Assembly (NCBI RefSeq): GCF_900169565.1
Contig: NZ_LT828648.1
Span: 3,756,501-3,820,500, forward strand
From: Nitrospira japonica
Lineage (GTDB): Bacteria; Nitrospirota; Nitrospiria; Nitrospirales; Nitrospiraceae
Length of the DNA: 64,000 bases
Direction: 5' to 3'
In this document: positions 14,946 to 20,900 of the stretch, one piece after another
How positions within the stretch are numbered: position 1 is the stretch's first letter
Layout: every line of letters begins with the position of its first letter
The notes under the pieces: model-generated
The model's database searches: none
Seen by the model: the letters and a program-made list of their open reading frames with translations, nothing else
Told to the model about the DNA's origin: nothing
Made by a program: the position numbers and the translations under genes

Positions 14946-17900
14946 CCATTCTCCCCAGAATTGTGTCCAGCGCGTCCTGGCCGATCTCGACGTCGGGGAA
15001 ATCCGACGGCGTATAGCCTCCCGCCTCGGAAGACGTGCAATGGTCGATCAGCGTTTGCAGGTGGTCGAGATAGGCGCGTCCCAGACGCTCGATCGTCGCC
15101 CGCCGGTAGCGGTTTCCGCTGTAGCTCCACGTGAGACTGAGCCGGTCGCGGAGGATTTCCGCGTTGACGGTCAGTTCGTACGGCAGCCTGTTTGCCGGCC
15201 CATGCTCCTTGCCGACCGATTCCTGCGCCAGGTCGAACATCGACCGCTCGGCCAACGCGCGGTCCAATTGACCGAAGTAGTTAAAGCAGAGGCCGGAAGC
15301 AGGACGCCCGCGCAACACCGCTCCGGTTTCGTCATTTCGGAGATAGCGCAAGACACCGTAACCGACTCCGCGGCCCGGGATCCTTCGCAGCTGTTCCTTG
15401 ATCGATTTGACGGTGTCGCCCGCGTCCCGCCCTTCCACGCGCAGCACGACCGGATGGATCGCGGTGAACCATCCGACGGTCCGCGAGAGGTCAAGCTCGG
15501 GGAACAGATCCTCGCGCCCGTGCCATTCCACGTCGACCGACGTCTCGGCCCGGCCGGTCCATGCGGCAACCGTTTGAGCCAACGCCGTGAGCAGGAGATC
15601 GTCGATCCGCGTGTGATAGGCGCCGGCCACGTCGTACAAGAGCGCCCTGGTCTGCTCCGCTCCGAGTGTGACCGTGACGGCTTCGACCGAGGTTTCGGTT
15701 CGTGCGCCGTCCGGATGGTCCACGGGAAGGGGCTGCGCCGTGCCGGACGTCTCGGTCAACCAATAGGAGGCCTCGGACGACAGGCCGTTCGACTGTGCGT
15801 ATTCCGACAGCTTGAGCGCCCATTGCTTGAACGAAGTCGTCTTGGCCGGCAGTTGCGGAGGCTGGCCGTGAAGGCGCTGCAGATAGACCTGCTGCAGATC
15901 CTCGAGCAGCACGCGCCACGACACGCCGTCCATCACCAGATGGTGTACGACGATCAGGAGGCGTCCGGCCTCCCCTTTCCCACGATCGAACCATACGACC
16001 AACAGGAGAGGGCCGCCGCTCAGGTGCACCCGCGTTTGCCATTGCTCGGCGAGCGCCTCAAACTGCTCGTCGAACTCGTTCTTCGACCAGGCCGAAAGAT
16101 CGATCCGGTGAACCTCCACATCGGATTCCGGTTCCACCCGTTGCCGCCAACCCTGAGCGCCCCGGTCGAATCGGGCGCGCAACATGTCGTGGTGGCGCAC
16201 CAAATCCCGCATCGCCTCGGCCAAGACCTGATGATTCAACGGCTGTTTGACCTCCAAGAGAATCGACTGGTTCCACCGGTGCGGATCGGCGAAATCATGT
16301 TCAAAAAACCAGTGCTGAACCGGCGTCAGCGGCACATCGCCCGCCACCGGTCCCTGTTCGGGAGGGAGCATAGCCGGGCCGGCTTCGGTCTGCGCGTCCC
16401 GTGTCGCAACCTCCGCAAGTTCGGCCGGAGTCTGATATTGGAACAACTGCCGTGGAGTCAGCGTCAGTCCGAGTTGTTTCGCGCGCGCAATGATTTGCAG
16501 CGACAGAATCGAATCGCCGCCGAGTTCGAAGAAGTTGTCGCGGCGGCCGACGCGGGGCTGGGCCAGCACCTCCGCCCAGATCGTGGCCAGCACGCGCTCC
16601 GTCTCCGTGGCCGGCTCCTCGTACGCCTCCGCCCGGGCCCCCGCCCCCTCCGGCACCGGCAGCGCCCGGCGATCCACCTTCCCGTTCGGCGTCAGCGGCA
16701 GCGCCGCCAACACCACCACGCTCGGCACCAGCGCCTCCGGCACCTGCGTCCCCACCCACTGCCGCAGCATGTCTCCCGTGACCGCCTGCCCCGCCCGCGG
16801 CACCACATAGCCCACCAACCGGGTACTCCCCGCCGCCGTCGCCTGCGCCACCACCACCGCGTCCTGCACCGCCGGATGCTGATACAGGCAGCTTTCGATC
16901 TCCCCCAGCTCGATCCGCACGCCCCGGATCTTCACCTGATGATCCAGCCGCCCCAGATACTCGATCGCCCCGTCCGGCCGATGCCGCGCCAAATCCCCCG
17001 TCCGGTACAGCCGCCGCCCCGGCTCCGGCCCGAACGCATCCGGCACGAACCGCTCCGCCGTCAGCCCCGGCCGCTGGTGATACCCCCGCGCGACGTTCAC
17101 GCCCCCGATGTACAGCTCGCCCGGCACCCCCGCCGGCACCGGGACGCCCCGCCGGTCCAGCAGATAGATCTGCGTATTGGCGATCGGCCGCCCGATCGGC
17201 ACTGGCTCCGCCGGCGCCGCCGGCGCACAGCTCCACACCGTCACGTCGATCGCCGCTTCCGTCGGCCCATATAAGTTGTGCAGGGCCACCCCCGGCAGCT
17301 TCGCCCAACACTGCCGCTGCACCGCGCCCGCCAGCGCTTCGCCGCTGCAGATCACCCGCCGCAACGTCCCGGCGCAAGCCTCCACCCCCGGCGTCTCCAA
17401 AAACGCCTGCAGCATCGGCGGCACGAAGTGCAGCGTCGTCACGCGGTCGCGCACGATCCGCTCCACCAACCGCAGCCCGTCCTTGTGCTCCTCCGGCTGC
17501 GCCAGCACCAACTCCGCGCCCGTCAGTAACGGCCAGAAGAACTCCCACACCGACACGTCGAAGCCGATCGGCGTTTTCTGCAGCACCCGGTCCGCCGGCG
17601 TCAGGCCGAAATACTCCTGCATCCATTGCAGCCGGTTGAGCAGCCCGCCATGGGTATTGCCCGCCCCTTTGGGCCGACCGGTCGAGCCGGACGTATAGAT
17701 CGTATAGGCCAGGTGCTCGAGCCGCACCGCCGTCGGCAGCGGCGCACGCGCCGCCGAGGCCGCCGGCTCCGTCGTGGGCAGGTCCAGACAGCGGCCCGCA
17801 AACGGCGGCAGGTGCCCCCGCAGCGTCGGCTGCGTCAGCAGCACGCCCGGCGCCGCATCCCCCAGCATGTAGGCGATCCGCTCGGCCGGATAACTCGGGT

Positions 17901-20900
17901 CGATCGGCACGTAGGCGCCCCCGGCCTGCAGGATCCCCAACAGGCCCACCACCAATTCCAGCGAGCGCTCCGCGCAGATGCCCACCAACACGTCCGGGCC
18001 CACCCCGTGCCGCTGCAATTCAACCGCCAGCGCCGCGCTCCGGCGCCACAGCGCCCCATAGCTCAGCGTCTGCTCCTCGCATCGCACCGCCACCGCCGCC
18101 GGCGTCCGCTGCACCTGCCCGTAGATCAGCGCCGGCACCGGCGCCGCCGTCCCATACGCCCGCGCCGTCGCGTTCCACTCACGCACCACCTGCTGCCGCT
18201 CCTCCGGCCCCACCACCTCGATCCCCGCCAGCCGGCCCTGCGGCTGTGCCATCAGCTCGTCCAACACCACGTCCAGGTGTTCCGCCAGCCGCTTCACGCG
18301 ATCAGGAGAGAACCGCTTGTGCTGATAGGACAACAGAAAGCAGAGCGATTCGCCCGGTACGACGTTGACGGTCAACGGATAGTTGGTCTGTCCCTCCAGA
18401 TACACGTCGTGGGCGGTCAGGCCCGCGCCGCCGTCGTCCAGAGTCCGGTCCGTCGGATGATTGTCGAACACCAGCAGACTGTCGAACAGCTGACGCCCGC
18501 GCGGCAGCTGACTCCAGGTCTGGATCTGCGCGAGCGACGTATGTTCGTATTGGCGGAGTTCGGCGTTCTGCTGCAGCAATCCCCGCAGCCAGGTGTTCAG
18601 AACGGCGTCCGATGATACGGTGACCCGAAGCGGCAGCGTATTGATGAACAGCCCGAGCATCGTCTCGATACCCGGAACGTCCGCCGAACGTCCCGACACC
18701 GTCGTGCCGAACACGACGTCCTCCTCGCCGCTGTATCGGCTCAGCAGCAACGCCCAGGCGCCCTGTATCACGGTATTGACGGTGACGCGCGCCTTGGAGG
18801 CCGCGGCCTGAAGAGCGGCGGTCCTGGCGGCCGAGATCGTCAACCGATGCGTGCCGTAGCCGGTGGGCGGCTGCGCGCCGTCTGAATCCCGGTCCGCCGG
18901 AAGCGGCGTGGGCGACGTGATGTCCGCCAATGTCTTGCGCCAGTACTGCTCGGCCGCGGTGTGGTCCTGGGAAAGAATCCACCCGACGTAATCCCGATAG
19001 GACTGCGCGTGCGGTTCATCCGGCGTGGGGCCGCCTTTCAGCGAGGCATAACAGGCGAACAGATCGCCCAGAATGATGGGGAGGCACCAGCCGTCGAGCA
19101 CGATGTGATGATGCGTCCAAATCAGATAGCGGGCATCGTCGGTGACGCGAATCAAAGCCAGCCGCATCAGCGGAGGCCGCGTGAGATCGAAATCGGTCAG
19201 CCGATCCGTCCGGAGAAACTCGTTGAGGCGCTCACGCTGTTGCGGCTCGGACGCTCCCCGCCAATCCAGCTCGACGAAGGGCGGCGTCTCGCCGGGTAGC
19301 ACGACTTGCATGGGCGCGTTCAGCTCTTGCCACATGAACGCGGAGCGGAGCGGCGTCGAACGTGCGATGACCATCCGCCAGGCTTCGAGGAAGGCGTTCT
19401 GATCCAGGCTGCCCCGGAGCAGGCAGCTCAATTGTTCGATATAGACGCCCGATTGCGGTTCATAGAGGCTGTGGAACAGCAACCCCTGCTGCAGCGGCGT
19501 CAGCGGGTACGCATCCTCGACCTTGGGGTACGAGCGCCGGACCGCGTCGAGCACCGCCGGATCGATCTGCCATGAAGGGGTACCCGCGCGCGGCGTCGAA
19601 TCGCCCGGCTGTAACTCTCCGCCGGCGGCTCCGGCCAGTTCGGCGATCGTCTGATGCTGAAAGAGATGCCGGGGTGTCAGCGGAAATCCTTGCGTCTTCG
19701 CCCGCGAGATGACTTGCAAACTGAGAATCGAATCCCCGCCCAACTCGAAGAAATTGTCGTGAACGCCGATCCGGTCCAATCCCAACACCTCGGCCCAGAC
19801 CGCTGCCAATTGTGCTTCCGTGGAGGTTCGAGGGGCGGTCCATCCCTTTGCGGCCGCGTGATCGGGCCGCGGCAGGGCCTGCCGGTCGATCTTCCCGTTG
19901 GCGCCCCGCGGAAGCATTGCGAGCTTCATGATCACGGAAGGCACCATCGGTTCCGGCAGTTGCTCACGCAGCAACGTGATCAACCCGTCGGCATCGCACG
20001 CCGCGCCGTCTCGAGACGCCACATACGCGACCAATCGTTTCTGCCCCGGATGATCCTGCCGGACGACGGCCGCAGCCTCCCGGACCTCCGGATGGGCCTG
20101 CAGGCGCGATTCGATCTCGCCCAACTCGATGCGTACGCCTCGGATTTTGACTTGGTGATCACGGCGCCCGAGAAATTCCATCGTGCCATCCGGACGACAA
20201 CGCACGCGGTCACCGGTCCGATACAGGCGGCTCCCCGGCTCACTGGAAAAAGGATCGGGCACGAACGAGCCGGCCGTCTTGGCCGGATCGTGGAGATAGC
20301 CCCGGCCGACCCCGATTCCGGCGACGCACAGTTCTCCCGAGGCCCCGATCGGAACCGGCTCCAACCATTCATCGACCACGTACAGGCGGACATTGGCGAT
20401 GGGCTTGCCGATCGGCGCATGGGCGCGGTCTTCACCCGGCGGCACCAAGATCGTGGCCATCGCGACGTCGTCGGCGCATTCCGCCGGTCCGTAGGCGTTG
20501 ACCAACGGCACGTGCGGGTACCGCTCGAACCACCGGCTGATCAGGGCGGGCGGCAGCGCTTCGCCGGTCGGCAGCAGCCATCGCAATCGGGCCAACGTCG
20601 GCGCCGACGCGCCTGCCGCGGCGGCGCTGTCGAGCATGCCTTGCAGCAGCGCCGGCACCGTCTCCAGCACCGTCACGCCCTGTGCGCCGGCATGGCGGAG
20701 GAGCTGTTCCGGATCGCGCGCCACGTCGTCGGGCACGATGAGCACGCGGGCGCCGCACAGCAGAGCGGCCGTGAGTTGCCAGACCGAAATATCGAATCCC
20801 TGCGACGCGGTTTGCGCAACGACGTCGGCCGGACCCAGCCGGAGCATGGACATCTTGCTGCGCAGATGATTGATCAAGCCGCGCTCCGTCACCATTGCGC

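Follow-up and report, generated by a model that had tools for sequence, protein, structure and literature searches.

A GC-rich serine adenylation domain in a Nitrospira japonica peptide synthetase gene as a probable copy of a gene-converted repeat

Introduction

Why should one adenylation (A) domain inside a nonribosomal peptide synthetase (NRPS) gene be much richer in G and C than the rest of the gene, and why should this composition start and end abruptly and in frame? The question is raised by a 64,000-nucleotide stretch of Nitrospira japonica NJ1, here called the window (C1:3756501-3820500 of the deposited genome, which is one contig of 4,084,817 bp). In its NRPS gene (Table 1) a GC-rich block encloses the serine (Ser) A domain, A2. 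The initial annotation of the window explained it as a swap of substrate specificity with a high-GC donor. Here we propose that the block is one copy of a gene-converted repeat shared by two adjacent genes, a and b, that its GC content was raised by conversion, and that the NJ1 copies were merged in assembly. We consider this highly probable. In this view, genes a and b, neighbours in a lipopeptide siderophore-type cluster of Nitrospirales, each hold one copy of a 1.7-kb repeat that spans linker, Ser A domain and peptidyl carrier protein (PCP) up to the phosphopantetheine (Ppant) serine. Gene conversion keeps the two A2 copies alike in each lineage, and mismatch repair favouring G/C during conversion would lift their GC content. 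In NJ1 the assembler would have merged both A2 copies, joining the condensation (C) domains and first module of gene a (C1-A1-PCP1-C2) to the end of gene b (PCP2 end and epimerisation domain, E). The in-frame GC edges would thus mark the limits of the repeat and would not have been left by a swap with a high-GC donor.

Results and discussion

Extent and composition of the GC-rich block

A two-change-point fit to the third codon positions of the NRPS gene placed the block at amino acids 1521-2104, i.e. window positions 16528-18279. The log-likelihood gain was 28.3, whereas the best of 30 shuffles reached 8.0. This confirmed the sharp in-frame edges near 16530 and 18300 that had been annotated initially. 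The accompanying GC values required correction. The block has 72.3% GC, and the annotated 77% is attained as a peak in a single 300-bp window (77.0% at 16550-16849). The flanks, reported at 53-58%, have 61-64% GC in the windows adjoining the block, and the remaining domains of the gene average 65%. GC at third codon positions (GC3) was 0.91 in the block and 0.79 in the flanking domains. The neighbouring domain A1, whose code DIWELTADDK we take to specify diaminobutyrate (Dab), has a GC3 of 0.79 and, as had been noted, no shift. A+T at fourfold-degenerate sites amounted to 0.02 in the block and 0.13 in the flanking domains. On the coding strand, G and C accounted for 0.83 and 0.15 of the fourfold sites in the block versus 0.50 and 0.37 in the flanks; a strong fourfold skew of G over C in A2 was also present in the related genome G003 and absent in G034 and G087. 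Compared with the A2 domain of G034, the fourfold sites of the block were near saturation (0.50 observed, 0.47 expected). Therefore, the high GC3 is kept up actively and is not a relic.

The Ser A domain is shared by two adjacent genes in relatives

In related Nitrospira two adjacent genes are found at this locus, gene a (about 2200 amino acids) and gene b (about 2650 amino acids, with E at its end). The first A domain of each has the code DIWELTADDK, and in paired genomes each has a Ser A domain with the code DVWHxSLIDK too. A sliding 100-amino-acid comparison assigned the window gene to the a type as far as about amino acid 1500 and to the b type from about amino acid 2050 on; only the GC block matched the A2 domains of both genes. 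The upstream part was 74-85% identical at the amino acid level to gene a of G118, G119, G121 and G143 and 26-56% identical to gene b. The downstream part was 74-83% identical to gene b of G119 (L052), with which it paired in the E tree (support 100/100).

The A2 copies of genes a and b were identical at the DNA level in G003 (over 1711 bp), G057 (over 1729 bp) and G087, and 99.94% identical over 1708 bp in G034, 98.4% in G071 and 98.5% in G077. G064 has three A2 copies, the third one in a gene d, with 98.4-100% DNA identity. These seven genomes are termed homogenised; G003, G034 and G064 among them are single-contig. The pair has diverged to 86.5% in G119 and is 80.4% identical in G065. The tract of identity is about 1.7 kb long and its ends map to amino acids 1525-1540 and 2111 of the window gene, the latter one residue past the Ppant serine; in G003, G034, G057 and G119 the 3' end is at position 2111 throughout. 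Outside the tract genes a and b have 64-69% DNA identity or cannot be aligned. Between lineages, and between them and the window, the A2 domains are about 60% identical at the amino acid level, compared with 98-100% within the seven genomes. In the A2 tree the copies pair by genome, whereas the C2 and E trees are ordered by species or by gene, with no mixing of the copies. Thus, in the relatives likeness within a genome repeatedly exceeds that between genomes, in a bounded tract with divergent flanks. The likeness of 98-100% within lineages that differ from each other by about 40% demonstrates that gene conversion keeps the A2 copies alike in each lineage. We claim concerted evolution for these relatives. 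The deposited NJ1 genome has one Ser A2 only, so two copies are not at hand in the window's own genome; for NJ1 concerted evolution would follow from the probable assembly collapse described below.

The Ser A domain is also found in gene d. In G064 (L141) it has the same tract borders and is 98-99% identical to the a and b copies; in gene d of G078 (L143) the copied domain is much older. Gene a of G064 (L142) carries an in-frame stop between parts of 1444 and 1062 amino acids and is either a pseudogene or affected by a sequencing error. In gene b of G065 (L133) the part from A2 to E groups with G087, to which it is nearly identical, while gene a differs; a transfer of part of gene b between these species is likely from the trees.

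Base composition follows the pair

For each gene we subtracted the mean GC3 of the other domains from the GC3 of A2. The excess ranged from +0.08 to +0.23 in homogenised genomes. With +0.11 the window gene resembled these paired genomes, as did that of Nitrospira sp. ND1 (G083) with +0.14. Values were +0.10/+0.13 in G065 and +0.06/+0.10 in the decaying pair of G119. Where the Ser A2 is single-copy, as in the seven genomes G118, G121, G160, G092, G097, G142 and G143, the excess was 0.00 to +0.07, and Dab-type A2 domains of gene b were at or below +0.01. Most homogenised genes, like the window gene, had their GC3 change points at the edges of the tract; single-copy genes had none there except for a marginal one in gene a of G121. 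In G087 and in genes a and b of G064 the strongest fit was elsewhere or broader than the tract. The rise extended beyond silent positions: GC at first and second codon positions of homogenised A2 was raised too, and Gly, Ala, Arg and Pro together made up 0.38-0.41 of their residues compared with 0.33-0.35. In both genes the Dab A1 domains, which have the same code and are not homogenised, showed no rise. Taken together, GC was higher in presently or recently converted A2 than in non-converted A2 at synonymous and other sites, over few independent transitions. We infer that conversion biased toward G/C may drive the GC content of A2 upward.

Other near-identical gene copies of Nitrospirales genomes were compared (tuf, L191-L195; nxrB, L196-L202). 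In five genomes the two tuf copies (99.7-100% identical) had a fourfold A+T of 0.015-0.075 versus 0.17-0.54 in the operon mates fusA and rpoBC. For the nxrB copies (99.5-100% identical) it was 0.011-0.087. The tuf gene was raised also in G261, in which one copy only was found. These data are suggestive and agree with GC-biased conversion, with expression-linked codon use as a confounder. That conversion between paralogous repeats strongly raises local GC in Nitrospirales, and that bacterial GC-biased gene conversion is thus visible within one gene, we rate as an even chance.

Collapse of the repeat during assembly

A single fused NRPS gene as in NJ1 was encountered in ND1 (L146). There, a separate 5066-bp orphan contig (L163, G083:C2) carries the N-terminus of gene b. 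The first and the last 127 bases of this contig match the fused gene exactly, from its positions 6228 and 4646, respectively, and in G034 the contig aligns in one piece, at 95% identity, to the interval that separates the A2 pair. When a de Bruijn assembly with k = 127 collapses a repeat, exact 127-base overlaps are left at both ends. Therefore, the ND1 fusion demonstrably is an assembly error.

The genomes of NJ1 (LT828648) and ND1 were published in the same paper (PMC5767232). The NJ1 assembly is the work of the same group and relied on the same method, i.e. paired-end and mate-pair MiSeq reads, SPAdes 2.5.0 and manual curation. The sole deposited NJ1 scaffold contains no N-terminus of gene b. 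Because ND1 from the same group and pipeline displays the artefact, the NJ1 fusion very probably is the same collapse, and by this analogy the NRPS gene of the window most likely is a chimera of genes a and b. NJ1 would then lack about 5 kb of intervening sequence and one 1.7-kb copy of the repeat, in total 6-6.5 kb or one Dab-Ser unit. All other cluster-bearing genomes with readable a and b, complete ones included, keep both genes separate, and no fusion of a and b was seen in any examined genome besides NJ1 and ND1.

Alternative explanations

Several findings weigh against the proposal of a gene-converted and collapsed repeat. GC-biased conversion does not predict the 5.5:1 ratio of G over C at the fourfold sites of the block. 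Most paired and single-copy genomes fall into separate clades, which leaves few independent transitions behind the correlation with GC. Gene a of G078 still has a GC3 of 0.85 though it is unpaired today, and that of G121 is slightly raised. In other phyla NRPS repeats of 88-97% identity lack a consistent rise of GC3 (Pseudomonas, Streptomyces, Variovorax, Cupriavidus and Paenibacillus; the listing includes some open reading frames in the wrong frame). Concerning the assembly, the collapse in NJ1 is deduced by analogy with ND1; mate pairs of 1-14 kb had been used, and the 1.2-1.4-kb repeats of tuf and nxrB are resolved in NJ1.

The separation of pairing and high GC into different clades and the G078 gene without partner would equally suit a GC rise that did not arise from biased conversion. 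The Ser A domain might have been GC-rich ancestrally and have lost this property in single-copy lineages, and selection on codon use or for efficient pairing would hold GC high in the others. In the same vein, the homogenised tuf is highly expressed and codon selection is expected there; for the NRPS genes considered here strong codon selection is unlikely. Yet the increase at first and second codon positions and in amino-acid content, the match of the GC edges with those of the identity tract, the Dab A1 domains with their shared code and the intermediate state of the partly diverged G119 pair all speak against this possibility, which we regard as rather unlikely.

Less probable still is a real deletion in NJ1, with a correct assembly: genes a and b would have been joined by unequal crossover at their near-identical A2 domains, with loss of one Dab-Ser unit and shortening of the siderophore. 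The architecture of the gene is exactly as expected from such a crossover, its reading frame is intact, the orphan b fragment is missing from the single NJ1 contig and mate-pair libraries entered the assembly. However, the only other fusion is that of ND1, which was produced in the same laboratory with the same pipeline and is, as shown above, a collapse with overlaps of k = 127, and the other readable cluster genomes, some of them complete, hold a and b apart. We therefore consider a genuine fusion improbable.

The exchange of an A domain has in its favour the sharp in-frame composition edges around linker-A-linker and the occurrence of such events in this family: the Ser A2 was copied into gene d of G064, and in gene a of G029 (L045 1315-7867) the code DILQLGLVWK, presumably for Gly, replaces that for Ser. 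In the latter A2 is 53% identical, compared with 76-82% for C1, A1 and C2, and this genuine exchange left no GC mark. The specificity code of the window A2 is unchanged, as Ser is specified in the window and in all gene a orthologues except that of G029. In the A2 and C2 trees alike the window gene groups with the a genes of G118, G121 and G143 (A2 clade support 100/99), and identities to gene a of G118 are similar across domains (A2 79%, C1 82%, A1 76%, C2 83%). Because these orthologues have ordinary GC, the composition of the window A2 has changed in place. No donor was found, as even the nearest A2 domains from outside Nitrospira did not exceed 55% identity. The same high-GC A2 occurs in the homologous clusters of G003, G034, G057, G064, G065, G071, G077, G083 and G087, and the phylogeny of A2 agrees with that of its upstream flank, the very pattern the initial annotation had named as speaking against an exchange. 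Moreover, with saturated fourfold sites a relic of donor composition would have vanished. Hence, of the initial idea the recombination tract stands, as linker-A-PCP, and the swap of specificity gives way to conversion within the cluster between two Ser A domains; an exchange with a high-GC donor is extremely improbable.

The window gene and the surrounding cluster

The coordinates are compiled in Table 1. The third condensation-family domain of the NRPS gene was assigned as E from motifs. In relatives the syntenic counterpart of gene c comes after gene b. Upstream in the siderophore-type cluster are the genes from the TauD hydroxylase to the FAAL-NRPS. In N. japonica both the a and the b part are about 80% identical to genus g5 versus 50-60% to the genus mate G003, and the cluster may have passed from one Nitrospira genus to another.

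Table 1. Features of the NRPS gene and its neighbours in window coordinates (PKS, polyketide synthase; FAAL, fatty acyl-AMP ligase).
Feature	Position	Strand	Basis
NRPS gene as assembled, 2637 amino acids, C-A(Dab code)-PCP-C-A(Ser)-PCP-E	14926..22839	-	Pfam domains
a-derived part: C1, A1 (code DIWELTADDK), PCP1, C2	18280..22839	-	identity to gene a of relatives
GC/GC3-rich block: C-A linker, Ser A2 (DVWHISLIDK), PCP to Ppant motif	16528..18279	-	change points
Conserved 3' end of tract at Ppant serine of PCP2 (amino acid 2110, GGDSILS)	16509..16512	-	
b-derived part: PCP2 end and E domain	14926..16508	-	identity and E tree
NRPS gene c: two modules, further C domain, TauD-type dioxygenase	5982..14945	-	Pfam, synteny
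TauD hydroxylase	22851-23876	-	Pfam
Thioesterase	23919-24782	-	Pfam
Penicillin-amidase-type protein	24933-28001	-	Pfam
Class-III aminotransferase	27353-28777	-	Pfam
ABC exporter	28813-30510	-	Pfam
PKS	30524-35122	-	Pfam
FAAL-NRPS	35112-40514	-	Pfam

Comparison with known systems

Read as one copy of a gene-converted repeat, the block has two practical consequences. A GC island with sharp edges inside an NRPS is not necessarily a horizontally acquired domain, and the module count of a siderophore-type synthetase is misstated in two published Nitrospira genomes, as shown for ND1 and probable for NJ1. The collapse corresponds to that of repeats in de Bruijn assembly; ND1 has the orphan contig with its 127-bp overlaps, and the NJ1 deposit, a single scaffold, is without such a contig.

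Concerted evolution of NRPS and polyketide synthase domains by internal recombination has been described, including the A domains of daptomycin, A54145 and CDA (Medema et al., 2014; PMC4256081). As there, domains of one cluster are kept alike internally. In contrast, the A domain pair reported here is located in adjacent genes, the tract borders are common to many species and a GC signature is present; the term 'GC content' does not appear in the text of that study. GC-biased gene conversion in bacteria was proposed from genes that bear signs of recombination (Lassalle et al., 2015; PMC4450053), and in both cases recombining sequence is enriched in GC. Here, unlike there, the exchange is between paralogous tracts, and the non-recombining flanks of the same gene serve as control; the words paralog, duplicate and ectopic are absent from that paper. 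A link between homogenised NRPS domains or bacterial paralogues and raised GC was not found among the open-access papers searched, subscription papers being mostly outside this scope. It is disputed whether GC-biased gene conversion occurs in bacteria, since the effects of recombination rate, selection and mutation are not easily told apart. A2 offers a natural experiment in which the same domain is homogenised in some species and single-copy in related ones, with its flanks as an internal control; the pattern is strong, and the mechanism would be biased conversion. This is reminiscent of the palindromes of primate X chromosomes, which are homogenised and undergo GC-biased conversion (PMC8981503). 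There as here near-identical copies on one chromosome would convert each other and have raised GC; yet here the host is a bacterium, the repeat is direct and part of coding sequence, and meiosis is not involved.

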